Translations under genes and position numbers: made by a program
Shown: positions 7,329-41,131 of the stretch, piece by piece
Position numbering within the stretch: the first letter of the stretch is position 1
How the letters are laid out: each line of letters opens with the position of its first letter
Notes under the pieces: model-generated
Told to the model about the DNA's origin: nothing
Databases searched by the model: none
What the model saw: only the letters and a program-made list of their open reading frames with translations
DNA from: a virus
Length of the DNA stretch: 44,603 nucleotides
IMG/VR virus record: IMGVR_UViG_3300028030_000272
Coordinates: 1-44,603 of that record
Strand: one strand, 5' to 3'

Positions 7329-7420
7329 AATTCACCTTTCGGGTCTATGTGAGTAACAAAACTACATTTGTTAACGCACAGTGTTAATTGATTATTAACT
7401 TTTTATATTACCTATTTTGT

Positions 7421-8680
7421 ATGAAGCATGTTTATACAAATAGTGGATATGAGAATATACAAGAGCAGATTGAATTCTTAAAAGGAATAGTGAGTGAATA
7501 CACGTCAGGGGACGAAAGACAGTTCATTGAAAACAATGAGCAAATAATCGAGTCCGCGCTAAACGGTCTTTATGAAAAAGAAAACATAAGATGGCTCAGA
7601 TATGGGTATGGCGATGAACTGGCACGACTGGCTTTGAACACCGCCGATGGCGTGATGGACGAAGATTCGCTTAACACGATAAATAAGATCATAGACATTT
7701 TCCAATATTGTATAGATAACGTTGTACCCTATACGTTCACATACAGCGGAGTTACATTTAGAAATCATGACCATTTAGGACCAAACATAATTCGCGCCTT
7801 CATGGAAAAAGCGGCAGTGGCTTTCGGCATGATGAAAAAAGCCGGGGTGAATGACAGGGCGTTTAAACAAATCCGATATATCGATATAGTACTCTATGAG
7901 GAAAGCAAACTAGAAAGTGATAATAACTATGGATTTGCTAATTATTCAGACAGTACCATAGCATTTGATATGCATGAATTTCATAAAGATCCGGATTTTC
8001 TAATTCAAGCGATGATACATGAAATAGGTCATATAATACAATTTAGCATGAAGAAGGTAGCAAACGAATTTTGGGGTGAACAACCGGAGGAAATTCGACG
8101 TCGGTATTCACTGACTGAACAAGAAGGCGACACTTTCTGGAACATGTTGGTTAAAAGTGGTTTCAATCCAAAATTTGTGATTGAAAGTTTAAACGGGGAA
8201 AGCAGAACGAAGTTTCGTCTTTGGATAGGGAACTCTGGCACGTTCGATACGTACGGGAACGTAGTGAACAACAAACAAGTGTTGGACATGGTAAAAGATC
8301 CCGAGGGATACTGCAAAAAGCATTTCGATGAGATGGGCGTTGAATTTGACGAGTGCGTAGCTAACGCTGAAAACGCTGAACAATACCTGGAGGACGAGTT
8401 CAAATCATTCAATGACGTGGGCATTTCATCATTCAATAACGTGAATGACGTTCCTGATTGGTTTAGGGATGAATACGACAGTATCTATGAACAATATGGT
8501 TTCCCGACATATTACGCGATGAAAAACGGCCTTGAGGATTTTGCCGAGACTTTCGTTTCGTACGTGATGAATCCTGGAAGCATGTCGGAAAACGCCAGGT
8601 ATAGAATGAGACATGCTCTTTGGCTTGAAGGTTTCTACAGTGGCAAAGACGTGATGAAAATTTCTTCCTGGTATATTTAG
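7421..8680 (+). CDS. HEIGH zinc metalloprotease, first of tandem pair
   Basis: Start taken at ATG 7421 (419 residues); a TTG at 7388 in frame would add an unlikely hydrophobic leader. The zincin motif HEIGH is at residues 200-204, and a conserved downstream DFAETF holds the probable third zinc ligand at about Glu 376 (gluzincin pattern). No signal peptide is visible, so it probably acts in the cytoplasm or is packaged. The next gene is a clear paralogue: both share KKAGV, DWFRDEY, YGFPTYYAMK and a C-terminal SSWY-aromatic end. Composition differs from the partner (28 of 60 GC at 8281-8340 here, 19 of 60 at 9181-9240 there). No ribosome binding site precedes the ATG. Substrate unknown; head-protein maturation or attack on host proteins are possibilities. 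Confidence 0.75.
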   Translation: MKHVYTNSGYENIQEQIEFLKGIVSEYTSGDERQFIENNEQIIESALNGLYEKENIRWLRYGYGDELARLALNTADGVMDEDSLNTINKIIDIFQYCIDNVVPYTFTYSGVTFRNHDHLGPNIIRAFMEKAAVAFGMMKKAGVNDRAFKQIRYIDIVLYEESKLESDNNYGFANYSDSTIAFDMHEFHKDPDFLIQAMIHEIGHIIQFSMKKVANEFWGEQPEEIRRRYSLTEQEGDTFWNMLVKSGFNPKFVIESLNGESRTKFRLWIGNSGTFDTYGNVVNNKQVLDMVKDPEGYCKKHFDEMGVEFDECVANAENAEQYLEDEFKSFNDVGISSFNNVNDVPDWFRDEYDSIYEQYGFPTYYAMKNGLEDFAETFVSYVMNPGSMSENARYRMRHALWLEGFYSGKDVMKISSWYI

Positions 8681-8682
8681 AT

Positions 8683-9840
8683 ATGATTTATGATAACGTT
8701 GATAAAAGTTACAATGAACTTATTAGGCTATATAATGACTTAATATTGAAGAAAGAAGAGTTAACGGATAAAGATCCATCTGATATTTTATCTAAAATAC
8801 TTGAGCATGATAATTGGATAAAATATGGGTTTGGAGTAGACATGTATGACATTTTATCTAATGATACTATGTCAATCGATGAAGTATTATATTTACTTCA
8901 CTATATGATAAAACAGTCCAGCACTAATTATTATAACAGTGAAATATCGATACGAAATTATAGTCATATAGGTCCATACTTTGTCAGTATATTCATGAAT
9001 GGGCTTAATATTGCAATGAGAAACATGAAAAAAGCTGGTGTAAAAGGTACACTTTATGACAATATTAAATATATAGATCTAGTTTTATACAACGATTTAC
9101 AAGAAAGTACTGGACTTGCTAACATAAATGATAAAACTATAGCGATATCTGTTAATAATGTAATAGAATTTGACACTGACAAGTTACCATATGTTATAGT
9201 GCATGAGATAGGACATATATTACAAAGTGTTATCCATGGATTAGCTTCTGAATACTGGGATGAACAATGGGAAGATATAGAGAATAAGTTTTCGATCGAT
9301 GAGCGTCAGTTAAATGAGTATTGGGAAATGTTGAAAAAAGATGAATTTTATCCAATGCAAATAATCAAAAAATTAAAAGGCACTGATAGGTTAAAATTCA
9401 GGATATTCATTATAAATCTTGGGTGTTATGATCATAATGGTCATAAGATAAGTGATTGCGGAGCTTTCGATAAAGTCAGAAACCCGGCTAAGTTTTGTAG
9501 AAACTCCAATAACATACCGGAATGTTATAAAAATATTGAAAATATGGAAGATATGATTAAATTAGATTTTATGGTATCCGGTGAGATGGGTATTCAATCG
9601 GAGTATGCAAGTATAAATGACGCTCCGGATTGGTTTAGGGATGAATACTCTAAAATTTATAAAGAGTACGGGTTTCCTACCTATTATGCGATGAAGAATA
9701 GCTTTGAAGATTTTGCTGAAACATTTACAGCGTTTGTCATGAATCCAGGTGAATTAAGTGAAAACGCTAAGTTTAGGATAAAACGCGCTCTTTGGCTTGA
9801 TAATAAGAAAAATGTAAAAGTTTCCTCTTGGTATTTTTAG
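8683..9840 (+). CDS. HEIGH zinc metalloprotease, second of tandem pair
   Basis: The 385-residue paralogue of the preceding gene starts 2 bases after its stop codon. HEIGH is at residues 174-178 and DFAETF at about 343-348, with Glu 346 the likely third zinc ligand. The two proteins align over nearly their full length, including the RN-x-x-H-x-GP segment, the hydrophobic HEIGH helix and the C-terminal SSWYF. Catalytic residues are intact in both, so neither is an obvious decoy. This copy is much more AT-rich, matching the genes to its right, while the first copy is nearer the GC-rich left part. No signal peptide is seen. Confidence 0.75.
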   Translation: MIYDNVDKSYNELIRLYNDLILKKEELTDKDPSDILSKILEHDNWIKYGFGVDMYDILSNDTMSIDEVLYLLHYMIKQSSTNYYNSEISIRNYSHIGPYFVSIFMNGLNIAMRNMKKAGVKGTLYDNIKYIDLVLYNDLQESTGLANINDKTIAISVNNVIEFDTDKLPYVIVHEIGHILQSVIHGLASEYWDEQWEDIENKFSIDERQLNEYWEMLKKDEFYPMQIIKKLKGTDRLKFRIFIINLGCYDHNGHKISDCGAFDKVRNPAKFCRNSNNIPECYKNIENMEDMIKLDFMVSGEMGIQSEYASINDAPDWFRDEYSKIYKEYGFPTYYAMKNSFEDFAETFTAFVMNPGELSENAKFRIKRALWLDNKKNVKVSSWYF

Positions 9841-10109
9841 ACCGATTTTAACTTCACGTATTGAATGAGGCCACTTTCGCTACTGTGAAAGACTTTCTTA
9901 TTTACAACTTCGTATTCACCGACAATCGGCTTGTCGTACATCACGCTGTGAAATCCCATCTTTATTTTTGATTTGAATTTCTGTACTTTAGCTACTGGTG
10001 GTTTTTTTATATTGAATATTATCTTATCACCGATCGACAGTTTTCCAAATTCAAATGTAGTGTATTCAACGTGATACTTGTTCTGTACAAATATTAACTT
10101 TGTTTTCAT
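9837..10109 (-). CDS. Small hypothetical beta-rich protein
   Basis: Start chosen at ATG 10109 (90 residues), because the longer reading frame would run into the purZ-like gene at 10143. The product is basic (many Lys) with beta-type patterning and a possible SH3-like stretch (FGKLSIGDKIIFNI). No family is recognised. Its stop overlaps the stop of the metalloprotease gene by 4 bases in convergent orientation, and it is divergent from the purZ-like gene. No strong ribosome binding site is visible. Confidence 0.55.
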   Translation of the reverse strand: MKTKLIFVQNKYHVEYTTFEFGKLSIGDKIIFNIKKPPVAKVQKFKSKIKMGFHSVMYDKPIVGEYEVVNKKVFHSSESGLIQYVKLKSV

Positions 10110-10142
10110 CACAAAACACATTACACAGAGGAACGGTAAAAA

Positions 10143-11315
10143 ATGCAAGAAGGAAAGTTTAACGTTATTCTTGACGGATTCTGGGGATCGTCCGGTAAAG
10201 GAAAAGTAGCTGCCTATTTGGCTGACAAGTACAAGATTAACCACGTTTCGTCAAGTAACTTCCCAAATGCCGGTCATACGGTAAGATTTGACAGCGGTTA
10301 TAAGTTCGTTTCAAAGGCCATTCCGGCGGCGCTCGCTCTTCACAGGGAAAAGGGCGTTGACATGATCGGATACGTTTCTCCCTCGTCCGGTTTTCACATT
10401 CCCCAAATTTTAAAGGAAATCAGTCAAACCGGCGGACCTGACGTTTATGTTCACGATAGGGCTAACATCGTTTCTGAACGTCATGCGAAGGAAGAAAAAG
10501 AGGGCGCGATGTCAACTAAGCATCTCGCCAGCACGATGCAAGGATCAGGGGCCGCGCTCGCTGAAAAGATCATGCGAATTGAAAAAGCGCAGCTCGCCGG
10601 GACCTATAGCATTAAAGAGTACATTGAAATGTACGCTAAAGACTCTGAGTTCAAAGATTTAGCGAATCGAATTCACGTCATTGACGGTAGAAGCTTTAGA
10701 GAGTTAGTTTGGGGATTTTTATCAAACGGAGGGACGTGGCTTCATGAGGGGAGCCAGGGTTACGCGCTTTCGATCGATCACGGGTCTCATTATCCGTACT
10801 GTACATCAAGGAACTGCACGGTTCAAAAGTACATGGACGACATGACGGTCCCCGCGAATCGAGTCGGTGACGTTTACATCAATATTCGTCCATACCCGAT
10901 TCGCGTCGGAAACGTCATTGAAAACGGCGTTGAGGTCGGGTTCTCAGGTGATTTTTATCATGATTGTCAAGAGATTTCTTGGGAAGAGGTGGCGAAGCGA
11001 GCCGGTATTCCTGATCCCGAGGAATTGAAAAACAAAGAGTTTACGACCGTCACCGGTCGTCTTCGTCGTGTTTCTACGTTTTCATATGATGGGCTCCGAG
11101 ATGCCGTCATGGCGAACGGGGCCACGAAGCTTGTCATGAACTTCATTCAATACGTTAACTATAAAGACATGGGCCTTCGAGGCGGAAAGGAAGCGTTCGA
11201 TAAGCTTTCATCCGAGTCCAGGAAGTTCATTGAAAAGGTTGAGGAAGTGTCGGGCGTTCCGGTCGTTTTGATCGGAACAGGGGCGAATCATGAAGACATG
11301 ATCGATATTACCTAG
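10143..11315 (+). CDS. purZ: PurZ-like N6-succino-2-amino-2'-deoxyadenylate synthase (PurA family)
   Basis: The 390-residue protein is clearly of the adenylosuccinate synthetase family. It has the P-loop GFWGSSGKGK (12-21), NAGHT with the catalytic His at 45, STMQGSGAA (130-138, in place of the GTTGRGIGP-type loop), EGSQGYALSIDHG (202-214) and TTVTGRLRR (301-309). Two changes point to PurZ. The catalytic Asp of PurA (GDEGKGK) is Ser 16. TKLD, whose Asp reads the guanine of GTP, is TKLV (328-331), fitting reports that a phage PurZ uses ATP or dATP. PurZ joins aspartate to dGMP on the way to dZTP (2-aminoadenine). AGAGGAA at 10127-10133 supports the start. The gene is more GC-rich than its neighbours and convergent with 11312-11893, sharing a CTAG stop overlap. 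A diverged PurA is the alternative. Confidence 0.82.
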   Translation: MQEGKFNVILDGFWGSSGKGKVAAYLADKYKINHVSSSNFPNAGHTVRFDSGYKFVSKAIPAALALHREKGVDMIGYVSPSSGFHIPQILKEISQTGGPDVYVHDRANIVSERHAKEEKEGAMSTKHLASTMQGSGAALAEKIMRIEKAQLAGTYSIKEYIEMYAKDSEFKDLANRIHVIDGRSFRELVWGFLSNGGTWLHEGSQGYALSIDHGSHYPYCTSRNCTVQKYMDDMTVPANRVGDVYINIRPYPIRVGNVIENGVEVGFSGDFYHDCQEISWEEVAKRAGIPDPEELKNKEFTTVTGRLRRVSTFSYDGLRDAVMANGATKLVMNFIQYVNYKDMGLRGGKEAFDKLSSESRKFIEKVEEVSGVPVVLIGTGANHEDMIDIT

Positions 11316-11893
11316 TCTGATTGTAGATAATCATTGTACATCTTTACGTATTTATCCTTGTATTTATTCGTTATATGAATGAATCTCATTTTCTCATGAG
11401 ATTCAATCCACTCATTACATTTTTGATACCAATCCTTGATCGGTCTTTGTCTGTCGGCGTCTATTAGGTGTTGAAGTCTCGTTCTGCCATCTTCCATAAA
11501 TTCAAACACCCACTCTTCGTTAATCGGATTGTCTTCATCGTTGTCTATCGCTGCGTGTACGTTGCCATACGGAAGCATTACGATGAAGTATCGTATGTTT
11601 TTAAATGACGGTTTCGGTCGAGGAATGAACTTTTCCATTCGTGATATTGAATAGAATACGCCTTCAGGAAGCACGACACCTGATGGTGTTACGCTATTCC
11701 ATCTTTTTATAGAGATCAACTTAGATTCAAACACGTTGAATCTAGAGTGACGTCTGAGTTTTACACCAATTTTATATGATTGCGACGGGCTAATACCCCA
11801 TCTCCATGGGGTGAAATTCTTGTGTAGCCCTTTCATTGGCAATCTTACAAATTCAACTTGGTCTAGCTGCTGCTGAATCTTTTGTACATCCAT
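11312..11893 (-). CDS. Hypothetical protein
   Basis: The 193-residue product is not recognised. It is rich in Trp, Arg, Lys and aromatic residues and looks like a mixed alpha/beta cytoplasmic protein. Features include a basic N-terminal half (MKGLHKNFTPWRWG, RRHSRFNVFESK) and a C-terminal helical part with several Trp and Tyr. There is no signal peptide, membrane helix or Cys cluster. It converges on the purZ-like gene with overlapping stop codons and diverges from the ThyX-like gene at 11929, so the 35-base gap at 11894-11928 must hold both starts. No good ribosome binding site is visible. A DNA-processing or modification role would be speculation. Confidence 0.55.
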   Translation of the reverse strand: MDVQKIQQQLDQVEFVRLPMKGLHKNFTPWRWGISPSQSYKIGVKLRRHSRFNVFESKLISIKRWNSVTPSGVVLPEGVFYSISRMEKFIPRPKPSFKNIRYFIVMLPYGNVHAAIDNDEDNPINEEWVFEFMEDGRTRLQHLIDADRQRPIKDWYQKCNEWIESHEKMRFIHITNKYKDKYVKMYNDYLQSD

Positions 11894-11928: not shown

Positions 11929-13134
11929 ATGAATATTTTTACACTAACTAAAGAAGACGGTTCCTTTTACCCTCCCTTTGTCCAATCCGCCGTAATGGCC
12001 AAGTATAGCCGGAGTTCTTCTTCGGCCAAGGAGATACTAAAGGAAGTTGACGAAAAGTATGGTTCTGATTTTAACCAGAAGTGGGCGGTTAAGAAGGGGC
12101 ATGATTCGCTATTAGAACTTGTCACTGTTCCTATTTGTTTGGAGGATATATCGATTTTCGCTTCCATGTTTATTGAAAACATGAAAAGACCGGCTTTCAT
12201 CGAAAGGTCTACAAGATATCAAAAGATGGAAGCGAACAATGTCATATATAATAACCTAGGTAAGGATAGTATCGCATTTGTATCGAAATTGTTTGAATAT
12301 TATGAAAAGTATAATGAAAAGTTGGTTCTGCATTTCATGAACGAGGGTCTCAGTGAACAAAAAGCGAAACTGAAAACGTACGACATTATTCGTTATTTTG
12401 TTCCGATCGGTATGAAAACCTCAATTGGTATGCTTATTAATTCAAGGGATCTCATTGAACTTATTCGTCGTCTTAAGTACATGAGTAAATACAGTGAATT
12501 TGTAAAAATTTCTGAAAAGCTAAATGACGTTTCGAAACGTACTTTTGGAATTGACGCGTTGAAAATGTCTCCGATTTATTCGGAGTCTATTGGATTTTTC
12601 CCTATATATGATACTGAAAGTAACTATAAAAAAGTAAAATTAGTTGACTCTAGCATCGTCGGTGATGACATTGTGTTAGATAAAGAAATTGTCGAGTACA
12701 TGTACTCAAGGAAGAAGAAAGATCCTCTTCCAATCATATTCAATAATATTCGATATAAATTTATGGTCACAACGGACTTTGGATCTTACAGGGATTTGCA
12801 TCGTCATAGGATGACAGATTGGGAGTTCGACACGATGTTTTATGAGATGGATAGACCATACGATATTCCATATGAGTTTATAGATGAAATCGATGTTGAT
12901 TTAAGAAAAGTTGGTAATATGGCTAAGGGTGCGGTAGATAATGAAAACTTATACTGCATTCCTCTAGGTATGAAAACAAGAGTCTTTGCTAGCATGTCTC
13001 TTAGTCAACTTTATTATATGGTTGAGTTAAGGTCACAGCCTGGTGGTCACAAATCGTATATAGAAATAGCCAGGGAAATGCACGATATTGCAGTTGGTAA
13101 ACATCCGGTCCACGCTAAGTGGATAAAGGTTTAA
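11929..13134 (+). CDS. Double-domain ThyX-like (flavin-dependent thymidylate synthase family) protein
   Basis: The 401-residue protein holds two ThyX-like halves. The N-terminal half has GHDSLLE (57-63), RPAFIERSTRY (87-97) and RYFVP/NSRDL (155-173), as in ThyX, but its RHR is lost. The C-terminal half has RDLHRHRMT (RHR at 292-294, the motif Ser seven residues later replaced by Thr 302), CIPLGMKT (343-350) and ELRSQPGGH (366-374). Classical ThyX is about 220-260 residues and works as a tetramer, so this is a fused or duplicated version. It probably binds FAD and dUMP or a related pyrimidine, making dTMP or a modified base. Expression with the purZ-like gene fits nucleotide supply. No ribosome binding site is seen before the ATG. 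Confidence 0.7.
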   Translation: MNIFTLTKEDGSFYPPFVQSAVMAKYSRSSSSAKEILKEVDEKYGSDFNQKWAVKKGHDSLLELVTVPICLEDISIFASMFIENMKRPAFIERSTRYQKMEANNVIYNNLGKDSIAFVSKLFEYYEKYNEKLVLHFMNEGLSEQKAKLKTYDIIRYFVPIGMKTSIGMLINSRDLIELIRRLKYMSKYSEFVKISEKLNDVSKRTFGIDALKMSPIYSESIGFFPIYDTESNYKKVKLVDSSIVGDDIVLDKEIVEYMYSRKKKDPLPIIFNNIRYKFMVTTDFGSYRDLHRHRMTDWEFDTMFYEMDRPYDIPYEFIDEIDVDLRKVGNMAKGAVDNENLYCIPLGMKTRVFASMSLSQLYYMVELRSQPGGHKSYIEIAREMHDIAVGKHPVHAKWIKV

Positions 13135-14244: not shown

Positions 14245-14423
14245 GTTTACTATTTATAGTGTTGATGGTATTAATTGACTTGATCGCGTATATCATTATT
14301 ACTAGATATATGCATAAAAAGAGTAGATCAAGTATGCATGAAATAGAAATAGATATGGATATGAATAAAATAGATAATGAGTTAAAACATTTAGAAAATC
14401 TTTTGAATCTTATTGACAAGTAG
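14241..14423 (+). CDS. Small membrane protein
   Basis: The 60-residue protein has a single membrane helix over about residues 2-21 (SLLFIVLMVLIDLIAYIII), then a short basic stretch and an acidic amphipathic helix. It is translationally coupled (ATGA) to the 14062-14244 gene. Its 3' end overlaps the convergent dNMP kinase gene by 33 bases. It could be a holin-like, spanin-accessory or anchoring protein, but nothing decides between these. Confidence 0.5.
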   Translation: MSLLFIVLMVLIDLIAYIIITRYMHKKSRSSMHEIEIDMDMNKIDNELKHLENLLNLIDK

Positions 14424-15164
14424 CTTTATCTGTAGTTCAAAATAAGCTAGCGACCTGTCATTTTTGATTACGTAGTCCATCATATCGAGATCAATATCTA
14501 AAACCGATTTTTCCGTTACATGGTTTCCAACGTTTACGCTCGGTCTATCTATATAGATAGACACGACATTTTCAAAATTCTGTTTAATATACTTTACTTG
14601 TGATTCAAACCGCACATCGGGAACTATGATGTACAAATCTTTTTCTAGTGACCAATTAGCACCCCTTAATATTTCGATACCCTTTGATCTAGAATAACCG
14701 TATCTTTTACTAATATATTTACCATTTTTTTCTACAATAGATAGTTTCTTGCACACTCTTAGTAGTTTGTCTTCAAAAGTATGCAAGTATGTATTTTGAA
14801 GTTTCATGGAGCACGTTCTTAACGCTACCCTTGGTGAGAGGAAATACTCACTGTTTGTGCTATATACGTAATTTTTTCCGTCAATTTGTTCATCGTAATC
14901 ACTATCGACTTCGTATAGTGTTTTATTGTCCTTAGTTATTTTCTCACCGATTTGTTTCACAGGATATCTATCATCGCCAAAATTTCGTTTTTGTGAGTCA
15001 GAGAATAAACTATCATAAGTGAACCCATACATATCCATCATGAACCTTTTTAGCGGGTCCATGAGTCCGACAATATCGGCAGAAAGTCCGTATGATAGTA
15101 TTTCTGCGGCTGTGTCTTTACCGCTTCCTGAAAGCCCTGATATTGTAATTATTGTGCTTTTCAT
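14391..15164 (-). CDS. Deoxynucleoside monophosphate kinase
   Basis: The 257-residue protein starts with a beta strand and the P-loop GLSGSGKD (9-16), followed by PLKRFMMDMYGF, a segment typical of T4 gene 1-type dNMP kinases (about 240 residues). Later segments (SPRVALRTC near 110, DLYIIVPDVRF, VVSIYIDRPS) fit the lid and core of this family. These enzymes phosphorylate dNMPs, including modified ones, to diphosphates. In a phage with PurZ it is a natural candidate to act on dZMP, though the sequence cannot show this. It lies 3 bases after the stop of the upstream zinc-finger gene, so the two form a minus-strand pair. Confidence 0.75.
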   Translation of the reverse strand: MKSTIITISGLSGSGKDTAAEILSYGLSADIVGLMDPLKRFMMDMYGFTYDSLFSDSQKRNFGDDRYPVKQIGEKITKDNKTLYEVDSDYDEQIDGKNYVYSTNSEYFLSPRVALRTCSMKLQNTYLHTFEDKLLRVCKKLSIVEKNGKYISKRYGYSRSKGIEILRGANWSLEKDLYIIVPDVRFESQVKYIKQNFENVVSIYIDRPSVNVGNHVTEKSVLDIDLDMMDYVIKNDRSLAYFELQIKLLVNKIQKIF

Positions 15165-26180: not shown

Positions 26181-26366
26181 ATGGTAATATTTAGATGCCC
26201 TGAGTGCGGAACAAGGCTAGAACAATACGGAAAAATAAACGAATTTGTGTGCATCAAGTGTAAAAAATTATATAAGGCAAATATAAAGGTAGAGTATATA
26301 GAGTTGTCATCAATAGATGATAGAAAGATGATAGAAGATGGACATAATAAAACTAGTGACAAATAG
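26181..26366 (+). CDS. Small zinc-ribbon protein
   Basis: The 61-residue product has the pairs CPECG (residues 6-10) and CIKCK (about 25-29), a textbook four-Cys zinc ribbon, followed by a short acidic tail. The first pair resembles those of transcription and translation-associated ribbons. Its 3' end overlaps the delta-prime-like gene by 29 bases. No specific role can be assigned. Confidence 0.6.
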   Translation: MVIFRCPECGTRLEQYGKINEFVCIKCKKLYKANIKVEYIELSSIDDRKMIEDGHNKTSDK

Positions 26367-27006
26367 TTTTGTTCCGATATGCGTTAGTTGTGATACGAAG
26401 AGCACCATAAACTCGATAATAGATGAGTTCAAAAACCTTAATGACAGAAACATATTACATGTTTGTGGAGCGTGTGAAATAACTAATGGTAAAAAGTTCA
26501 TTCCAGTAATAAACGAGTTTTGTTTCAACCCATCAATAGATCTTCAGCCAAAGATATTGATCTCTGATTTCACTGATGGAATACAAGACGTCACTCAAGA
26601 CGCATACCTTAGAATATGTGAGAATGTTCAATCATATAATAAGGTATTGATATTTGTTAATGACGAGTATGATTTAAGTGAGGCTCTTCGCTCTCGTTTA
26701 AGAGTAGTTAGAATTGTTGGTGAGTTTGTTATATCAAATAACTTTCTTAGACTATCTGAGTTCATTGTAAACGAGTTTGATAAAGCAAAATTTTATGGTG
26801 TTCCAAAAATAGTTGTTGATATTCCTGTCGGAATGTCTTTCGATAAAAAACAACTAATAGAATCAATGAAGATAGCAGCTCATAACTTAAGGGATTCTGG
26901 TAAGCTTGAAGAAGCCATAAAAGTTTATAGTTTTATCTCAAGACTTTATACCGATCTATACACTAAGACAGAGCTTCTTTGGGGCGATTTTGTCATACAA
27001 ATGTAG
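26338..27006 (+). CDS. Clamp loader delta-prime-like subunit (HolB-like)
   Basis: The 222-residue protein lacks a P-loop. It contains the core of a clamp-loader delta-prime fold: ILISDFTDGIQDVTQDAYLR, then KVLIFVNDEYDLSEALRSRL. This matches the helix before sensor 1, the sensor-1 strand and the SRC-like segment (SRLRVVRI) of AAA+ clamp-loader subunits. It is shorter than bacterial delta-prime (about 330 residues), lacking an obvious N-terminal zinc module. The next gene is delta-like and DnaX is at 41148, so the assignment is well supported by context. It would sit at the stationary end of the pentameric loader. A start inside the upstream gene is implied by the 29-base overlap. Confidence 0.6.
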   Translation: MDIIKLVTNSFVPICVSCDTKSTINSIIDEFKNLNDRNILHVCGACEITNGKKFIPVINEFCFNPSIDLQPKILISDFTDGIQDVTQDAYLRICENVQSYNKVLIFVNDEYDLSEALRSRLRVVRIVGEFVISNNFLRLSEFIVNEFDKAKFYGVPKIVVDIPVGMSFDKKQLIESMKIAAHNLRDSGKLEEAIKVYSFISRLYTDLYTKTELLWGDFVIQM

Positions 27007-27016
27007 TTAAGGATCC

Positions 27017-27898
27017 ATGGCCAATGTAGTAGTTTCAGGAACCGATGAGTTCCAAATAGAGATGTTTGTTGATGGAATGGCAGACTCATACTTGGGTGGA
27101 TATGCTAAGTATGATGATATAAACCGCCTTCTAATTGATAACGAATATGGTAAACTAGTTGGTAAGCTTGTGATAGTGTATGGATCAGACGTCATTCATG
27201 ATCTAGATACTGGTGGGTTTGACGTAGTTTATGTGTCTAACAGTATACGTTGTGATACGTGCAAGAACATTGTCTTGAATGAGTTCAAACCATACGACGA
27301 AAAGTCTGTCATACGGTGGATCAACGATTACGGAAGCTCTATCGGCGTTGATCTGACATCGGTAGCAAAGCCATTATTTATAAACTGTGGTAATAGCACT
27401 AGAAAGATCCACTCTGAAATACAAAAGCTGGTACAACTGTCAGGGTTTTATAGTAGTATTCAGATGGATCTTTTTAAGTCTGTTGTCTGCTACTCGAATG
27501 CAATAACACCGAGTTTGGTGATAGATTCGATGTGTAGCGGAAATGTACACGCATGTGTCGGGTTTTATGATAAACTCCAGGAAAGATATGATGAAACAGG
27601 CTGGATCGCCACGTATTTACATGCCTTTTTACAAAGATGTGTCAAAATCCATCAATTTACATCATTTCGTATTGATGATGAAACAGCCTCAAAGTCACTT
27701 AATATATCAAAAGGTCAGTATTACTTACTCAAAAAACGATATAAACTTTGGACTAGGGAACAGTTACTAGATTCAATAGGTGTCGTGAATGAGGTTAATA
27801 GACTTCATAGGGAAGGCACTGTTGGATCAGAGTCACTTTTAGAAAAGCAATTAATAAAGTTGTCTTTGGAGGCTAAGAAATGTCTAACGAGAGCGTAG
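27017..27898 (+). CDS. Clamp loader delta-like subunit (HolA-like)
   Basis: The 293-residue protein fits the HolA layout. It has an N-terminal AAA+-like region without Walker motifs ([16 protein letters not shown]), a middle linker with [21 protein letters not shown] (the position of the delta domain II helix that senses cofactors), and a C-terminal collar with [20 protein letters not shown] and then [20 protein letters not shown]. The last block matches the region of HolA that reads 'lg-x-y-x-x-k-x-a-x-w' followed by a helix ending in a glycine-containing [14 protein letters not shown]. Delta opens the clamp. Its 3' end overlaps nrdJ by 19 bases. Confidence 0.6.
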
Positions 27899-30237
27899 CG
27901 GTATTGAACGAAGTCGTCATAGAAATAGAAAATACGAAATCAGGAATCAATATCATGCCATCTAGAAACGGGCTCGGATCCATCAAAAGAGTGTTCACTG
28001 ATGAGGGCGTGGATCCGTATGATACCATAAAGTGGAAGATCGTTACAGCTCATACGTTAGATAATAATGGGAAGACTAAAGTAGACATCGAAAACGTTGA
28101 GGTTCCAGAGTTCTGGTCTGAGTCTACGATCAATACTATTGTTCCCAAATACTTTCGAATGATCAATGGTGTTCAAGAAAAGTCTCTGAAGTCTGTGGTA
28201 GATAGGGTCGTCAACACAATAGTTGATTGGTGTGATGAGCAAGACTACTTTAGCGATAGTAACGATAAAGATGTCTACTCTGATGAAATGAAATACGCTA
28301 TCGTTCATCAATATGGTGCTTTTAACTCTCCGGTTTGGTTTAATTTAGGTGTTCCCGGAAGAAAGCAGACTGTTAGCGCTTGTTTTATTTCAGAGGTGGA
28401 AGACTCATTAGAGTCTATCATGGAATTTCAAGCCAATGAGCTTAGAATTTTCGCCGCTGGATCTGGCTCTGGTGTGAATATTTCATCTGTTCGTTCTTCA
28501 TATGAGAAGCTTTCATCCGGGTCGTATGTGTCTGGACCTATGTCGTGGATGAAGATGAATGATATGGGCGCGGCGGCTATGAAGTCAGGTGGTAGTACGA
28601 GGAATGCCGCTAAGATGGTGATCATGAACATTGATCATCCAGACATAATTGAAACTATGGATGGGCGGCCTGGATTTATTAGAGCTAAAGCTGTTGAAGA
28701 ACAAAGAGCAAGGGACCTAGCTAGCATCGGATATTCAGCTAATTTTAGTGATCCAAATTCCGTTCAAAAATCGGTAGCGTATCAAAACGCCAACTTTTCT
28801 GTTAGCATTACAGATGAGTTCATGAAAGCCGCGAAAAACAGGAAGTGGTTTGCCACTCATGCTGTTACAACTGGCGAAACCGTAAAAATGTACGACGCAA
28901 AAGAGATGATGCGTGAAATCGCTAAGGCCACGTGGGAATGTGGCGATCCTGGTGTTCAATTTTATGACACAATCAATAGTTGGCATACTACCCCAAAGAA
29001 TGGTCCGATCGTTTCTAGCAACCCATGTTCTGAATTTCTTCATGTAAATAACACAGCGTGTAATTTGTGCGCATTGAATCTCGTTAAGTTTTTGAATGAT
29101 GATAACTCATTCAAGTTCGATGAGTTTGAGCAAGCGGTGAAGATTTTCACGATGGCTCAAAATGCGTTTGTCGACAAAGCTAACTACCCAACGCGTGAGA
29201 TCTCATACAACTCAAGTAAACTTCGTCCGATCGGGCTTAATTTCGGTAACTTAGGCGCTTTTGTTATGAAACTTGGGTATGGCTACGATTCTGACGAAGC
29301 TAGGGGTATTGCGGCTGCGTTAGCCTCTCTTATGACAGGAAGTGCGTATCTGAACTCTGCTCTTATGGCCAGGGAACTTGGGGCTTTCCATTACTATTAT
29401 TCAAACTCAGATGATATGCTTAGGGTCATTCGTCAGCACAAGCAGGCGAGTGATAACATCGAGAATAAGTATGGAAAGATTGCTCTAGGTTCACAGTTTA
29501 AGGGTCGTCTTGATGAAATTTGGAACAAGGTCCTTAACTATGGTAGCACATACGGATTTTATAATTCACAAGTAACACTTCAAGCTCCTCTAGGGACTCT
29601 TTCGTTCTTCATGGGTCTTGAAACGTCGGGCATTGAACCGGCCTATTCACTGGCAATAAAGAAGGACATGATAGACGGAACAGACGCCATAATTTTAGTG
29701 AAATCCGTAAGGCCCGCTCTTCGTTCTCTTGGATATAAGGAAGAGATTGAAGGCATCATGGACTATTTTGCTAAGAGTGGAACACTTGAGGGCGCTCCTG
29801 GGCTAAAGAAAGAGCACGAAAAGGTATTTGATTGTGCCATGCCGTCTGGAACTGGGAAGAGGTTCCTTTCACCTATGAGTCATATTAAAATGATGGCGGC
29901 GATCCAGCCTTTGATCTCTGGTGCTCAATCTAAGACTGTGAATGTTCCCGAATCTGCTACGGTTGAAGATATTGAAGACATCTACATGAAAGCCTGGGAA
30001 CTTGGAATTAAGTGCGTAGCCATCTATAGGGACGGGAGTAAGGTTTCTCAAGTTTTAGGTAACAAGGAAAAGGAAAAGCCTGTTAAGAAGTTTGAAAATA
30101 AGTTCCCGTCAGTAGTTCCCGTGTCAAACGTTGTTAACATGGACGGTCCGCCGTGTTACTTATGTGGAGAAACTACTAGAAGAAATGGATCATGCTACGT
30201 TTGTCCGAAGTGTGGGACGACCACTGGATGTAGCTGA
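27880..30237 (+). CDS. nrdJ: Adenosylcobalamin-dependent (class II) ribonucleotide reductase
   Basis: The 785-residue protein is complete. It has [11 protein letters not shown] (148-158), SACF (Cys 168), a GSGSG-rich loop (194-198), the catalytic NPCSE (381-385), and [19 protein letters not shown] further on. The C-terminus has a zinc/redox tail with Cys at 759, 762, 772, 775, 778 and 784. Class II enzymes use adenosylcobalamin instead of a radical-generating subunit, reduce ribonucleotides to deoxynucleotides and work in air or without it. The phage thus depends on host B12. GGAGG (27867-27871) lies 8 bases before the ATG, a strong ribosome binding site. A long hairpin ends the gene. It supplies dNTPs for replication, including the dGMP pool needed by a PurZ pathway. 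Confidence 0.9.
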
Positions 30238-30870: not shown

Positions 30871-31959
30871 ATGGATATCAAGCAACTTGAAGATCTAATC
30901 TTGCAGGCTAGGAAAGCGTATTATAATTTAGATCCTATCATGAGTGATAGTGAATATGATGCGCTCATAGATAAATTGAACTCGTTGAATCCAAAGTCTG
31001 ATAATATTACACAGGTCGGGTATCCGATCGATAGATCTGTCGGCGGATGGAAAAAACAAAAACACAAGATAATGATGGGTTCACTGAATAAAGTGAACCT
31101 AGAAAGCGAGTTTGTAGATTGGGTCGGAATAAACTCACACAGTGATCTTTTGATAACTCACAAACTCGATGGATCATCGCTTGAACTAGTTTATTTTGGT
31201 GGTAAACTAAAATCGTGTGTTACTAGAGGGGACGGTATTGTCGGTGAAGATATCACACCTAATGGTGCATTGATCCCAACAATACCAAAGACGATTTCAT
31301 ATGATGGTGATTTGTTTGTGCGTGGGGAAGTTGTTATATACAAACAAACGTTCAATGATATCTATGGTAGTCAATATTCAAATCCTAGAAATGCTGCCAA
31401 TGGAAAGATGAAAAACTATCATGATCCATCAGGGTGTAAACATCTGACGTTTGTAGCTTATACGATCATGGGAATCGATGGTGTTAACTATGAAAATCAA
31501 GTATTTGAGACGTTAAAAGGTTTAGGATTTGTTATTCCTGATTATCATGTTGGTGATGTGAAATCTGTCATTGAGTGGCATAACAAGTGTATGGAAAACA
31601 GAGATTCAATACCGTACATGATCGATGGAACCGTGATTAGAATAAACAACATGCAAGTTCAAAGAGACATGGGCGATAAAAACATGCGCCCTGTTGGACA
31701 AATAGCATGGAAACCGGAGTCTAAATCTAAGACAACAGAAATCGTTGACGTTGAATGGAACGTTGGATCAACGGGTAGGATAACTCCAGTAGCAATAGTG
31801 AAACCTGTTGAAATAGACGGTGTAACAATTACTAGGGTATCACTTCATAACATCAAAATGTTCAAGAGTTTACAATTGAAAAAATCAGATATTGTAATAG
31901 TCACAAGAAGAAATGACGTAATACCATATTTGACAAAGCCTCAAATGGAGGTTCAATAA
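30871..31959 (+). CDS. ligA: NAD+-dependent DNA ligase, subunit A (adenylation and OB domains)
   Basis: The 362-residue protein contains the NMN-binding domain Ia (YYNLDPIMSDSEYD, 17-30), the adenylation domain with the active Lys 98 in HKLDG, RGDG (119-122), SNPRNAANG and the IDGTVIRINN segment, and an OB fold ending near the C-terminus (TRRNDVIPYL). Bacterial LigA continues with a zinc finger, helix-hairpin-helix and BRCT domain; here those are in the next gene. The break falls exactly in the linker between the OB fold and the zinc finger, so no domain is damaged. It seals nicks during replication and repair. Confidence 0.88.
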   Translation: MDIKQLEDLILQARKAYYNLDPIMSDSEYDALIDKLNSLNPKSDNITQVGYPIDRSVGGWKKQKHKIMMGSLNKVNLESEFVDWVGINSHSDLLITHKLDGSSLELVYFGGKLKSCVTRGDGIVGEDITPNGALIPTIPKTISYDGDLFVRGEVVIYKQTFNDIYGSQYSNPRNAANGKMKNYHDPSGCKHLTFVAYTIMGIDGVNYENQVFETLKGLGFVIPDYHVGDVKSVIEWHNKCMENRDSIPYMIDGTVIRINNMQVQRDMGDKNMRPVGQIAWKPESKSKTTEIVDVEWNVGSTGRITPVAIVKPVEIDGVTITRVSLHNIKMFKSLQLKKSDIVIVTRRNDVIPYLTKPQMEVQ

Positions 31960-31960
31960 A

Positions 31961-32725
31961 ATGTTTGAAATGCCGAGACAATGTCCTGTATGCGGTGAAC
32001 CTACGGAGATTATAGGTGATTTCCTTTATTGTATTAATGATGGGTGTAGTTCTAGGGATCGTGGGTTCATCAAGTCGTGGATACAAAATATAGGAATTTT
32101 GTACTGGGGCGATGCGATGATAGACTCCATGATTGACGATGGAGTTTCATCGGTTTCTCAACTGTATAAAATGTCTCCGTATGAGATACAACAGTATTGT
32201 TCTGGACAGAAGATGGCCGACAAGTGCTTCAGAAGCTTGCATGAGGCCAAAGTGACGTTGATTACTTTCCTGGCTTCTCTTAATATAAAGGGAGTCGGAA
32301 CGAGCGTATCATCACTAATAGTGGATAGTGGTTTTGATAGTATTGATAAAATATTGTCAATTACATACAATGATCTAGTAGTGATAGATGGAATCGGTGA
32401 TAAAATCGCGGACGTGTTTGTTAGTGGTATTCAGGCTAAAAAACAAGAGATACTTGAACTATCCAAGATCATTGAGTTTGAAACCGTTGACAGTAAACTT
32501 GCCGATTATACTATCTGCATAACTGGAGACACCCCTATACCTAGAAGTGCCATTCATGCAAAAATACTTGAACTCGGTGGTAAAGTATCGAAGTCTGTTT
32601 CGAGTAAAACAAATTTGCTTGTTTGTTCAAACCTAGAGTCAAATTCGTCTAAAATGAAAAAGGCGAAAAAGCTCGGGTGTAATATCATGCACGTTTCTGA
32701 CTTCATGAGAATGATTGATGAGTAG
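31961..32725 (+). CDS. NAD+-dependent DNA ligase, subunit B (zinc finger, HhH, BRCT)
   Basis: The 254-residue protein starts with a zinc finger (C8, C11, C24, C29), then a helix-hairpin-helix region (about 40-165, with LNIKGVGTSVSSLI and DGIGDKIA) and a BRCT domain (about 182-254). This is the C-terminal half of LigA. The ATG begins 2 bases after the upstream TAA, in another frame, so the halves should be made as separate polypeptides and probably assemble. No slippery sequence is evident. The 3' end overlaps the recD2-like gene by 8 bases, counted from its ATG at 32718. Confidence 0.85.
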   Translation: MFEMPRQCPVCGEPTEIIGDFLYCINDGCSSRDRGFIKSWIQNIGILYWGDAMIDSMIDDGVSSVSQLYKMSPYEIQQYCSGQKMADKCFRSLHEAKVTLITFLASLNIKGVGTSVSSLIVDSGFDSIDKILSITYNDLVVIDGIGDKIADVFVSGIQAKKQEILELSKIIEFETVDSKLADYTICITGDTPIPRSAIHAKILELGGKVSKSVSSKTNLLVCSNLESNSSKMKKAKKLGCNIMHVSDFMRMIDE

Positions 32726-34898
32726 TATAAACATTGTAGGGGATGTTAGCTATATAACTTTTCATAATGAAGATTTCTACATTATGAAAGTAAAGACAAA
32801 TAAGGGAAGTACTACAGTAAAGGGTAATTATATAGGAAACGTTTCCGTTGGACAGACTCTTAAATTCACCGGATCATGGAATGAGCATAAAAAGTACGGT
32901 AAGTTTTTTGAATTTGAATACTGCGAGCCATATTTAGAAAAAACTAAAGATAGCATTATCAAATATATTTCATATAATATAGATGGTATTGGAATAACTA
33001 CAGCAAGAAGACTGTATGATCATTTTGGTGATAACGTAATTGAGATATTAGCTAAGGATCAAGATAAACTAAAAGAGGCAAAGTTTCTCAATAAGAGTCA
33101 AGTCAGTAGCATCAAACAGTATTGGTCCGTTAAGCTAAGAAACAATAAAGCTAGCGTTAAATTACTTCGATCCGGAGTAAAGATCAGACTCGTTAAAAAG
33201 ATCATAGAAAGGTTCGGGGAGTCCACATATGAGGTAATAAATGAAAATCCATATAAACTGATTGAGGTAGACGGGATTTCATTTAATTTGTGCGACTCTA
33301 TGGCGATATTGGGCGGGATCGATAAAGACAGCGATCACAGATACAAAGCTATTGTCATTAATGCCATCGACATGTCTAGGCTTGATGGGAACGCGTATGT
33401 TTTAACTAAAGATATCAATAAATACGTAAGTAAGATGTTTTGGAACGGTAGTATTCCCAAAATAAAACATGACGGTTCGTTTCCAGACTACGTATTAGTT
33501 AAGATACTATCTGATTTAAAAAATGATGGGATCATAGTAGTAGAGGGTGATAAAGTATATAAAACTGTTGATTATAATATTGAATCATATATAGCTAGAA
33601 TAGTGAATGATATGATAAATACTGAGAATGAGTATTTATCAAAACAATTGAAATCAATAGAAGAATCTGTTAAAGATTTTGAAAAGAATAATAAGATTCA
33701 ACTTTCTAAAAATCAAAAGCTCGCATTGGACATGTTAACAAAATCTAAGTTTTGTGTTGTGTCCGGTTTCCCTGGATCTGGAAAAACCACTGTTGTATCT
33801 GCTTTCATTTATATTTTTGAAAAAGCCGGTATTAATTACGAGCTTATGAGTCCGACCGGGATCGCTGCGAAGCGTCTTTCAATAGTGACAAATAGAGAGG
33901 CTAACACGATTCACCGAGCTTTAGGATATAACGGTGAATCGTGGCAATTCAATGAAAACAATAAGTATGACATCGATGCTGTTGTGATTGATGAAGTTTC
34001 AATGCTTGACAACTCAACGTTCCTTTCACTGTTAAAAGCCTTGAAGCCTACGACGATGGTGATCGCTATTGGAGACAATAATCAACTTCCGTCTGTTGGC
34101 ATTGGGGACGTGTTGAATCAACTCATGCAAAGTTCGCGCGTTGAGTCGGTGAAATTAACTAAGGTATTCAGACAATCTCATCAGTCAGACATCGTTGAGG
34201 TAGCGTCCTCGATTCTTTCTAACGATAGAGTTAGCACAAAGTATAACCCAAAGTCTGAGTTTGTTTTCATACAAAGAAAGCCACAGGACATTTTTACGGA
34301 TATAAATAATATCTCACGTATTTTGTTTGAAAAGGGGATGTCCTTTCAAGTCATGAGCCCTATGTACAAGGGAAACTTAGGTGTCGATAATTTGAATGAA
34401 CTTTTACGCCCGACACTAAATGATAAGTATGAACACAAAAAGAATATAAAATTTGGGAAATCTCGACTTTACGTCGGGGATCGTGTGATGTTCATAAAAA
34501 ATGATTACAACAATATGATATATAACGGTGATATCGGAAAAGTTGAGGATATGAACATCAAGGATAGTAAGATCAAAATCAAAGTGTTTAACTGGTTTGA
34601 TGGTGACTCATACTCAGATACTTCATTCAATTTTAGTATGAGTGAGGTGTTTTCGAATATTCGTGTGTCCTATGCGTGTACCGTTCATAAGGTTCAAGGG
34701 CAAGAATTTGACGCCATTATTATGCCTATTGTTGATGAGTATAGAATAATGTTATACAGGAATTTGATCTATACCGCGATCACAAGGGCGAAAAAACGTG
34801 TGTTTATAATAGGTCAAACGTCCGCGTTCAATAAGGCCCTGTCGAATGAAAGAAAAATAACAAGAAATTCTTCAATAAATGAGATGATAGATCGATAA
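32718..34898 (+). CDS. RecD2-type superfamily 1B DNA helicase
   Basis: Start chosen at ATG 32718; the TTG just before it is less likely. The 726-residue protein has an N-terminal OB-like and helix-hairpin-helix region (IDGIGITTARRLYDHFG near 90-105), Walker A GFPGSGKTT (about 350-358), Walker B VIDEVSMLD (about 423-431), motif III-like AIGDNNQLPSVG, and the C-terminal VHKVQGQEFDAI (about 656-667) and YTAITRAKKRVF motifs of SF1 helicases. RecD2 unwinds 5' to 3' and acts in replication-fork repair. It follows the ligase genes and precedes the SbcD-like nuclease, forming a recombination-repair set. Confidence 0.85.
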   Translation: MSSINIVGDVSYITFHNEDFYIMKVKTNKGSTTVKGNYIGNVSVGQTLKFTGSWNEHKKYGKFFEFEYCEPYLEKTKDSIIKYISYNIDGIGITTARRLYDHFGDNVIEILAKDQDKLKEAKFLNKSQVSSIKQYWSVKLRNNKASVKLLRSGVKIRLVKKIIERFGESTYEVINENPYKLIEVDGISFNLCDSMAILGGIDKDSDHRYKAIVINAIDMSRLDGNAYVLTKDINKYVSKMFWNGSIPKIKHDGSFPDYVLVKILSDLKNDGIIVVEGDKVYKTVDYNIESYIARIVNDMINTENEYLSKQLKSIEESVKDFEKNNKIQLSKNQKLALDMLTKSKFCVVSGFPGSGKTTVVSAFIYIFEKAGINYELMSPTGIAAKRLSIVTNREANTIHRALGYNGESWQFNENNKYDIDAVVIDEVSMLDNSTFLSLLKALKPTTMVIAIGDNNQLPSVGIGDVLNQLMQSSRVESVKLTKVFRQSHQSDIVEVASSILSNDRVSTKYNPKSEFVFIQRKPQDIFTDINNISRILFEKGMSFQVMSPMYKGNLGVDNLNELLRPTLNDKYEHKKNIKFGKSRLYVGDRVMFIKNDYNNMIYNGDIGKVEDMNIKDSKIKIKVFNWFDGDSYSDTSFNFSMSEVFSNIRVSYACTVHKVQGQEFDAIIMPIVDEYRIMLYRNLIYTAITRAKKRVFIIGQTSAFNKALSNERKITRNSSINEMIDR

Positions 34899-34912
34899 AT
34901 GTAATTTACTTT

Positions 34913-35899
34913 ATGATTAGGCTACTTTTTTCTACGGATGAACACATCTCAGGGATAAATCCGGCATACAGAAAAGACGATTACCTTGAGACGATACTAA
35001 ACAAGATTCGTTGGCAGCTCAATTTTGCTCGTGAAAACGACGTTGATGCCATACTTCATGGAGGGGATCTATTTAATCTAAAAAAACCTAGTAGAACCTC
35101 ACATAAAGTGATTAACGCTACGATTTCGGCACTAAATGAATCGCCGTGTCTTAATTACGCGATTTTAGGGAATCATGATTACTCTGATTATTCTGACCTT
35201 ATGAGTCAACCGATCGGTGTTTTAATGAATGGGGATCATATCATTCACTTGTCTCATGAACAGTTCAGATCGGACGTCACCGTTGGAGTGGTAGGTGTAG
35301 ATTATAAATACGGGCATGATTACGATCACATCACAAGTTCGTTGAGCGGGAAGCTCGAACTTCTTCCCGAGTGTGATTTCACTGTCGGCATTTTGCATAC
35401 GTTAAGTTCAATGACCGGGGTGTCCGATATCTACGGTGAATACTGCTTGAATATCAACAAATTGTCTAGGGAACCGTTTTGTCCTGATGTTGTCATGATC
35501 GGACATGAGCATAAACAATACGGAGTCGATGAAATTAACGGTCATTTCTTTGTAAGAAATGGGTCACTGTCTAGAGTCGCATTGAATGATAACACACTGA
35601 TGCACAAACCATCAGTTACAATGTTACAATTTTCTAAAGACGGCATTGAAATTACAACACATGTCGTTGATCACCAACCGGCGCATGAAGTTTTTGATAT
35701 TGAAAGGAAAAGCAGAGTAAAGAAAGAAAATAAAATACTGGATGAGTTTATTGAAAAACTTAAGGGAAGTTTTAGTAGTTCTGATGAACTCGATAGGGTC
35801 TACGATGAATTTGTTGGATCTAAGGATTTTCCACAAAAGTTAAAGAATATCGTAGATGAAATACTAAAAGAAGCTGACTATAAAAAGAGCACAAAATGA
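34913..35899 (+). CDS. SbcD/Mre11-like nuclease (T4 gp47 type)
   Basis: The 328-residue calcineurin-like phosphoesterase has the five motifs in order: STDEH (Asp 9, His 11), GGDLFN (50-55), GNHDY (86-90), ILHT (His 162) and GHEH (197-200). These bind two metal ions. SbcD, with SbcC, trims DNA ends and opens hairpins; T4 gp47/gp46 do this for recombination-dependent replication. The C-terminal about 80 residues form the helical capping region that contacts the ATPase. The ATGA overlap couples it to the next gene. The matching SbcC-like partner at 38156-38752 is only a half ATPase. Confidence 0.85.
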   Translation: MIRLLFSTDEHISGINPAYRKDDYLETILNKIRWQLNFARENDVDAILHGGDLFNLKKPSRTSHKVINATISALNESPCLNYAILGNHDYSDYSDLMSQPIGVLMNGDHIIHLSHEQFRSDVTVGVVGVDYKYGHDYDHITSSLSGKLELLPECDFTVGILHTLSSMTGVSDIYGEYCLNINKLSREPFCPDVVMIGHEHKQYGVDEINGHFFVRNGSLSRVALNDNTLMHKPSVTMLQFSKDGIEITTHVVDHQPAHEVFDIERKSRVKKENKILDEFIEKLKGSFSSSDELDRVYDEFVGSKDFPQKLKNIVDEILKEADYKKSTK

Positions 35900-36732
35900 T
35901 ATATATTAGCTATTCCGGTAAGAAAACGTACCTACAATGTCCATTAAAGTATAAATATATATACATAAATAGATTAGCGATTAAGGGTGATAGGACTGCT
36001 GCCATTCGTGGGATTGTGATCGATAATCTGTTTGAAAAATTCTATAATGACAAATTATATATCAAAAATCAGAAAGAAAAGAACTTCGGGTTAGAATCAT
36101 ACGTAGACTATGTGATCGATCGAGTATTTGAAAAGGAAGCATTACTCCCTGAGGATAACGTTGAATTCCGATATAGGCTAAAGCAAGAAACGATAGCTAA
36201 AATCGAGCCCACGTTAGAAACAATAAAAAAGCATAAACTGATAAAAGATAACAGTAAATCGTCTGTTAACTTATCTACTCATATTAGAGTTAGTAAGTTT
36301 AGTGATACCGTTAAACTAGTAGGGATCGCTGATTTTATTCATGGGTACGGAAAGTCTGTTTGGATACTAGACGGTAAGAATTACATGAAAAAAGAAGCGG
36401 ATTTGGATCAGCTTCTTTTCTACGCTACTTTGTATGCTTTTAAATACAAGGTTGTTCCCTCACGTCTCGGGTTTCTTTTTTACATGTTCAAGGATGATCA
36501 ACTTCAGTGGGTTGACTTCAATGAAGATATGCTAAGGGAATCATTCAACAAAACGATTCATGTAATTTCTGAGATCAGAAAGGGAAAGTTCCATCCTAAA
36601 CCGTCAGTGAGTTCGTGTGCTAACTGTAAATTTAGACACATATGTGAACATGGAAAAGCATTGGATGAAGAGATAAGGTTAGAAAAGGGCATACTGGTTG
36701 AAAGTAGTCTGTTTGATTTGGAGAAAATATAA
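35896..36732 (+). CDS. Cas4/RecB-like PD-(D/E)XK exonuclease with Fe-S cysteines
   Basis: The 278-residue protein has a YSGKKTYLQCPLKY start (Cys 15), the PD-(D/E)XK core with Asp 146 (GIADFIHG) and DGK (159-161), the DQLLFYA helix (171-177) and a C-terminal CANCKFRHIC (C241, C244, C250). One early Cys and three late ones form the 4Fe-4S layout of Cas4 and AddB-type nucleases. It should degrade or process DNA ends. The third core residue is Asp rather than Glu (DGK, not E-x-K), which is allowed in this family. Its place between SbcD-like, clamp and SbcC-like genes marks it as a recombination enzyme and not part of a CRISPR system; no array or cas1 is present. Confidence 0.8.
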   Translation: MIYISYSGKKTYLQCPLKYKYIYINRLAIKGDRTAAIRGIVIDNLFEKFYNDKLYIKNQKEKNFGLESYVDYVIDRVFEKEALLPEDNVEFRYRLKQETIAKIEPTLETIKKHKLIKDNSKSSVNLSTHIRVSKFSDTVKLVGIADFIHGYGKSVWILDGKNYMKKEADLDQLLFYATLYAFKYKVVPSRLGFLFYMFKDDQLQWVDFNEDMLRESFNKTIHVISEIRKGKFHPKPSVSSCANCKFRHICEHGKALDEEIRLEKGILVESSLFDLEKI

Positions 36733-37046
36733 TGATCAATTTTGACGATGTTGACGTGAAAGTAGCGAAGGAATCTATCGAGTCTAAATTCAATGACTTG
36801 AAAAGGCGCATTGAAAAGCTAAAGTCTGATAAACAAAAGATCGATGCGGTTTTATCGGTGAAGATGAATCAACGGGCTGAATTGATTGAAAAGATCAAGA
36901 AAATGGGGTATAACCCGGACGATTTGAAAAATCAAATCGATGAAAAGAGAAGAGTTTTGAACATAACACTTAACAACATAAACAAAGAGGTTCAGTTTTT
37001 AGAAGAAAAGATTGAACCGATGTTAGAAGCCATCTCAAAGATGTAA
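36732..37046 (+). CDS. Small coiled-coil protein
   Basis: The 104-residue product is almost continuous amphipathic helix (FNDLKRRIEKLKSDKQKID, then NINKEVQFLEEKIEPMLEAI) with a short turn containing YNPDD near the middle, so it could fold as an antiparallel coiled-coil hairpin. It overlaps the upstream stop by one base and lies next to nuclease, clamp and SbcC-like genes. That raises the idea that it supplies part of an SbcC-type coiled coil. No family is recognised and no Walker motif is present. Confidence 0.55.
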   Translation: MINFDDVDVKVAKESIESKFNDLKRRIEKLKSDKQKIDAVLSVKMNQRAELIEKIKKMGYNPDDLKNQIDEKRRVLNITLNNINKEVQFLEEKIEPMLEAISKM

Positions 37047-37058
37047 GGACAATACAGT

Positions 37059-38153
37059 ATGTCAACAATGAGCTTCAATGATCAGGCAGTCAAGAAACTT
37101 CTTAACGCTAAACTGGTTAAACCGTCATCAGCATTTTATAATATTCAACCGTATGATGGAGGTATGTCGATTTCGTCTATTGATACACGTCGGATGATCA
37201 AACTATCGGTGTTATGTGATAGTGTTGATGGTGTGGTAGATAACAAGTCAGAATATTTTATCCCTATCAAGAAACTTAATTTATTCTCATATCCTGGGTC
37301 TTACAGGTTAAAATTTAACGAGGATCACATTCTTGTTAACATCAAATCAGATGTAGGGAAAAAGAGCGCGAAGATTCGTCGTAAGAACATGCGTCAGTAC
37401 ATGTTTGATAATTTTAAGATTTTTGATGAGGTAGAGCCGGTTTCTATTGATTCAGACGTTTTACGAACGATCTTGAAAAATCTGTCGGCATCAGCTCAGA
37501 TTAAAGAAACGAAAACTGACGCCGATATGAAGAAAAATAAGATTCAATTTTACGGTCAGGCATCGGTCGCGATTTCGGACGCCACATACTATGGGACTTT
37601 CTGTTACCACGATGACATTAAGTTTGATATATCGATTTCATCAGCGGACGTACCTATCGTCATGGGCTTCTGTGATATTTCCGAAGGCCCGATTGAAATG
37701 TATGATGCAAAAACCCATTTCATGTGTAAGAATTCAAACGAGGATACTCTTCTTATCACGAAAGTAGTGACTGAAAGAAGTGAACTATTTGAAATTGAGG
37801 ATGAGTATGAACACGTGATTGAAATTGATCTGGCGATGTTGAAAGACGCCGTTAAATGGGCGATCGAATCGATCGATGGGACTCAGCGTGTTAAGTTCAA
37901 GTTTGACGGTAATGTGATTGAAATGCTATCTAGTGGGTCCATGATATCATCTCTTTATACAATGACGGATTCAAAACCGTTTGATGTTGACCTTCCGATT
38001 CAGATTGTATCAAACATCATTCATAACATAAAAGGAAAAACCATTAAGTTCAAGTATAAGAACAAGTCTACTCCGACTATCGTTGAAATTAATGGTGATA
38101 AAGACGACGAAGTTCAAACCAGATACTTCATTTCAGCTATGCTACAGAGGTAA
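37059..38153 (+). CDS. Beta sliding clamp-like protein (DnaN-like)
   Basis: The 364-residue length matches bacterial DnaN (about 366). The chain reads as three beta-rich repeats, and the last 90 residues fit clamp domain 3: KPFDVDLPIQIVSNIIHNI, the KGKTIKFKYKN strand pair and a C-terminal YFISAMLQR, where DnaN ends in Y-x-x-M-P-M/V-R-L. The preceding DLAMLKDAVKWAIESIDG resembles the helix before domain 3. The protein would encircle DNA and tether the polymerase. Sequence identity is low, so the call rests on length, layout, the C-terminus and the presence of DnaX, delta-like and delta-prime-like genes. Confidence 0.65.
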   Translation: MSTMSFNDQAVKKLLNAKLVKPSSAFYNIQPYDGGMSISSIDTRRMIKLSVLCDSVDGVVDNKSEYFIPIKKLNLFSYPGSYRLKFNEDHILVNIKSDVGKKSAKIRRKNMRQYMFDNFKIFDEVEPVSIDSDVLRTILKNLSASAQIKETKTDADMKKNKIQFYGQASVAISDATYYGTFCYHDDIKFDISISSADVPIVMGFCDISEGPIEMYDAKTHFMCKNSNEDTLLITKVVTERSELFEIEDEYEHVIEIDLAMLKDAVKWAIESIDGTQRVKFKFDGNVIEMLSSGSMISSLYTMTDSKPFDVDLPIQIVSNIIHNIKGKTIKFKYKNKSTPTIVEINGDKDDEVQTRYFISAMLQR

Positions 38154-38155
38154 AT

Positions 38156-38752: not shown

Positions 38753-38759
38753 AATTACC

Positions 38760-40593: not shown

Positions 40594-40616
40594 GTAATTC
40601 TGACGAAGGTAGAAAA

Positions 40617-41057: not shown

Positions 41058-41079
41058 CTGTTTAATTTTACGTTTACCT

Positions 41080-41116: not shown

Positions 41117-41131
41117 TTGTATATGACGACA

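Follow-up and report, generated by a model that had tools for sequence, protein, structure and literature searches.

Production of the unusual DNA base Z (2-aminoadenine) starts with PurZ, N6-succino-2-amino-2'-deoxyadenylate synthase. The Z phages with a worked-out pathway, cyanophage S-2L, vibriophage phiVC8 and Acinetobacter phage SH-Ab 15497, have genomes of about 39-45 kb in which purZ, datZ and, in S-2L, mazZ lie close together. In known Z phages, the step from N6-succino-2-aminodeoxyadenylate (dSMP) to dZMP is left to the host (PMC12884076), and S-2L replaces all A by combining an unselective PrimPol with DatZ (PMC8065100). A related enzyme, PurZ0, is found in Gordonia and Arthrobacter phages, where its partners are DutZ and DmtZ (PMC12884076). 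Here, we analysed a whole IMG/VR virus record of 44,603 bases (hereafter the window), classed as linear and possibly a fragment, and found that it encodes a PurZ belonging to a lineage of huge phages, which suggests that Z may replace A even in genomes up to ten times larger than those known.

The gene, at 10143-11315 (+), begins with an ATG and encodes 390 aa. A Shine-Dalgarno-like AGAGGA, identified by sequence reading only, lies at 10127-10132 (+), 10 nt before the ATG. An ORF listed at 9837-10244 (-) overlaps the start of purZ, but its likely ATG, judged by eye, lies outside purZ and we do not treat it as an antisense gene. While Pfam gave only the superfamily (Adenylsucc_synt), the models that tell the subfamilies apart favoured PurZ: PHROG_1211 ('2-aminooxy adenylosuccinate synthetase') matched with E=2e-53, and the NCBIfam PurZ model scored 193 bits, compared to 185 for archaeal-type PurA and 138 for purA. 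Although PurZ was the best of all models, it scored under its curated cut-off of 300 bits, indicating that the protein is divergent; this cut-off is a naming threshold of one curated model rather than a property that defines the enzyme. Orthologues at 50-60% identity in the same gene neighbourhood of other phages, together with these matches, exclude chance. By sequence, the best solved structure was phiVC8 PurZ. A 38-sequence AlphaFold model (pLDDT 95.9, pTM 0.94) matched first 7odx, S-2L PurZ bound to dGMP and dATP, with P. horikoshii PurA close behind and PurZ0 eighth. Fold alone does not decide between PurZ and archaeal PurA; residues and phylogeny do.

To compare diagnostic residues, we aligned PurZ-like and PurA proteins using MAFFT. 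The motifs GSSGKGK (15-21), NAGHT (42-46) and TGRLRR (304-309) are present in the window protein. The residues unique to PurZ that touch the substrates in the S-2L structure, S23, T273 and Q308 (PMC8342488), correspond to S16, T301 and Q336, and F334 stands at S-2L F306. All 19 PurAs have D at the first position, 18 of 19 have G at the second and K at F306, and all 19 have D at Q308. In contrast, the large-phage clade has Ser in 36 of 36 proteins, Thr in 36 of 36 and Phe in 36 of 36. The earlier note was therefore right that Ser16 (codon at 10188-10190, +) replaces the PurA catalytic Asp, but it misread T328-K-L-V331 as the counterpart of the guanine-reading TKLD. The true counterpart is N333-F-I-Q336 (11139-11150, +), which matches S-2L N-F-A-Q, including the adenine-contacting N305, F306 and Q308. 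This correction does not change the conclusion that the guanine-reading Asp is lost. Inspection of the relatives also revealed that purZ of three of them (L038, L085 and L099) is interrupted by intein-like inserts at the active site, in the NAGH|T motif in all three, with a second one before CTSR in L099.

A careful tree of 67 proteins placed PurZ and PurZ0 apart from archaeal and bacterial PurA (100/98, bootstrap/SH-aLRT) and PurZ without PurZ0 at 100/100. The window falls in a 30-row clade (97/100) that holds none of the studied PurZs and is made of IMG/VR contigs and the cultured Flavobacterium phage MaF61, with a core of 15 rows including the window (99/92). A quick tree of 100 rows agreed. 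Fourteen of the clade's records exceed 200 kb, the largest being 436 kb. PurZ-type (GS for GD) proteins were also found in contigs binned as a deltaproteobacterium, an archaeon and a patescibacterium (L110, L111 and L133), the last two branching near the base of PurZ/PurZ0. The relatives were recovered by alignment scans of IMG/VR; a single-sequence scan found none. Megablast of the right part of the window and tblastn with the clamp-like protein gave no match against phage records.

Several genes around purZ are shared with these huge phages. A conserved gene of unknown function (11312-11893, -) lies between purZ and thyX and is found in the same place in 11 of 13 core relatives. It is followed by a divergent thyX, encoding an FAD-dependent thymidylate synthase (11929-13134, +), and by a deoxynucleoside monophosphate kinase (14391-15164, -), which we infer to be a possible dZMP kinase. 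Further along are two genes conserved beside the ribonucleotide reductase (26338-27898, +), the first with a weak clamp-loader match, the class II (B12-dependent) ribonucleotide reductase itself (27880-30237, +), and a replication block (30871-43946, +) comprising an NAD ligase in two genes, RecD2, SbcD-like, Cas4/RecB-like, clamp-like, SbcC-like, Toprim primase, DnaX, NusG-like and 5'-3' exonuclease genes; the ligase, SbcC and Cas4 names rest on sequence reading. Window proteins at 26.3-43.9 kb match, in order, two relatives read whole, G011 (393 kb) at 288 down to 270 kb and G002 (363 kb) at 242 down to 218 kb, and purZ, the small minus-strand gene, thyX and the kinase follow at 295-305 and 249-259 kb, respectively. 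The window is thus a piece of such a phage. Differences were nevertheless observed: the two halves of the NAD+-dependent DNA ligase (30871-31959 and 31961-32725 in the window) lie on opposite strands in G011 and G002, and two tandem paralogous genes with a weak zinc-peptidase match just upstream of purZ (7388-9840) were not found in either of these relatives.

As the earlier note reported, no datZ or mazZ is visible in the window, and homology searches of the window found neither these genes nor a DNA polymerase. However, five of the 14 first-ring jumbo records (G001-G014), namely G002, G004, G005, G011 and G013, carry a YfbR/DatZ-family HD gene (PF12917, 1e-18 to 3e-25; PHROG 'dATP triphosphohydrolase' for the two scanned). 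A MazG-like gene with the E-x-x-E / E-x-x-D motif is directly beside it, and a family-A polymerase lies about 10 kb away. This block is located 90-240 kb from purZ, so its absence from a 44.6-kb fragment is expected. The remaining 9 of the 14 records have no DatZ match; several of these are fragments, G012 is cut at its polymerase, and G014 and G008 have diverged polymerases. As a small control, two huge phages without a PurZ-type gene, LR745208 (485 kb) and LR756501 (735 kb), have no PF12917 match, and the latter carries an ordinary PurA (GDEGKGK; 9998-11197 of record L021).

The assignment of these partners calls for caution. The HD motif and metal-binding residues of DatZ are conserved, but I22, which keeps dZTP out in S-2L by excluding the 2-amino group (PMC8065100), aligns with Ser or Thr, leaving dATP selectivity unproven. 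The MazG-like matches are weak by profile (Pfam 4e-5 to 0.04, none for one protein; PHROG_229 2e-9 to 8e-4) and rest on place plus motif. PF18909 and PF03819 were nearly absent from the 24 relatives, and DUF5664 was seen only in G022, in searches that did not include PF04447. The MazG-like protein of G011 (L201:4696-5409) also carries a C-terminal ubiquitin-like (Multi_ubiq, PF14452) match. The relatives' family-A polymerase groups with that of LR745208 and not with phiVC8-type DpoZ; it also fell outside the Wayne-like DpoZ group, although this is less certain since the reference (Herb) is on a long branch. Either this polymerase evolved Z use independently or, as in S-2L, selectivity comes from dATP removal.

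Five of the 14 first-ring records (G002, G004, G007, G013 and G014), as well as the outlier G023, encode adenylosuccinate lyase (PurB) over the curated cut-off (411-474 against 326 bits), and MaF61 has an annotated one, whereas G011 and G005 have none by this search. This makes a phage-encoded route from dGMP to dZMP likely in part of the clade, the use of PurB on dSMP being inferred. In a sister group (G015-G020), PurZ is 39-44% identical to that of the window, DNA polymerase III alpha matches are spread over separate open frames, a dUTPase-family protein is mostly present, and there is no DatZ match. As PurZ0 phages use the dUTPase-family enzyme DutZ to hydrolyse dATP and dGTP (PMC12884076), a parallel is possible but untested.

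Altogether, these observations support the inference of the earlier note that this phage may replace adenine with 2-aminoadenine. Most likely, the gene encodes a working PurZ that joins aspartate to dGMP using ATP or dATP to give dSMP, which a PurB from the host, or from the phage as in several relatives, turns into dZMP, and which the phage dNMP kinase or host kinases carry to dZTP. A DatZ-family HD enzyme would remove dATP, a MazG-like enzyme would supply dGMP from dGTP, and the phage's own family-A polymerase, all expected outside the window, would then build DNA with Z in place of A, which would protect it from restriction enzymes. We consider this explanation well supported, although the activities, the presence of the same partners in this phage and Z in its DNA are inferred from sequence, without biochemistry or base analysis.

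A less likely alternative is that the enzyme is a real PurZ but that Z replaces A only partly, dZTP competing with dATP for a less selective polymerase that puts both into DNA. This would be consistent with a polymerase that is not of the Z-selective phiVC8 type, with the lack of DatZ in the second ring of PurZ phages, and with the non-conserved selectivity residue of DatZ. However, the example of S-2L shows that a selective polymerase is not needed, and datZ and a MazG-like gene are present in five core relatives. It is very unlikely that the protein is a PurA serving ordinary adenylate synthesis: the archaeal PurA model NF003295 scores close to PurZ (185.5 against 193.4 bits), the C-terminal part resembles archaeal PurA and some huge phages carry true PurA, but Asp is lost at both PurA-defining positions, PurZ-type residues are present and the tree excludes it from PurA. 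Finally, an active or decaying passenger gene with no role in DNA chemistry, suggested only by the lack of partner genes in the window, is hardly compatible with the intact frame, purifying selection between two relatives (omega 0.15 in the one unsaturated pair), the conserved place beside thyX, the dNMP kinase and the RNR in the core clade, and the invariant Ser.

While the enzyme kind is known, the huge-phage lineage, its gene arrangement, its own PurB and its different polymerases are, as far as we could find in the open literature searched, not described; Listeria jumbo phage LPJP1 is a suspected uracil phage, not a Z phage. We consider it more likely than not that huge phages with records up to 436 kb replace A by Z with a further, separately assembled kit, comprising a distinct PurZ lineage, their own PurB in some, a distant datZ-mazG pair, a thyX-dNMP kinase-RNR island, and polymerases unrelated to known DpoZ (an own family-A type in the core; a split Pol III alpha, mostly with a dUTPase-family enzyme, in the sister group). 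If these phages carry Z, they would show that full replacement of one DNA letter scales about tenfold and that phages take over the lyase step, and would offer polymerases that copy Z without being DpoZ.

Compared to PurZ of S-2L, phiVC8 and SH-Ab 15497, the window protein shares the same predicted fold, the same diagnostic residues (Ser for Asp, TTVT, NF-x-Q/N) and the same side of the PurZ/PurZ0 split, but is only about 30% identical and belongs to a clade of huge phages. PurZ0 of the Gordonia and Arthrobacter phages (Archimedes, Herb) also has Ser for the catalytic Asp and TTVT, but it keeps the Asp of the guanine-reading motif, has GSEAKG, and is about 25-29% identical. The 'putative adenosuccinate synthetase' of MaF61 (PQ858689, 168 kb) has GSSGKGK and lies inside the same clade, albeit on a long branch and at 27% identity; the MaF61 genome also has an annotated RNR but no DatZ over the cut-off, and no claim of Z was found in the passages of its description that we consulted. 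Lastly, the purA/PurZ of Bacillus phage vB_BpsS-140 (MH884512), the top-listed phage record (34.6% over 99%), has the PurZ-type Ser and a similar C-terminal part, but carries GSEGKGK, falls on a separate branch and is encoded by a 55-kb phage.
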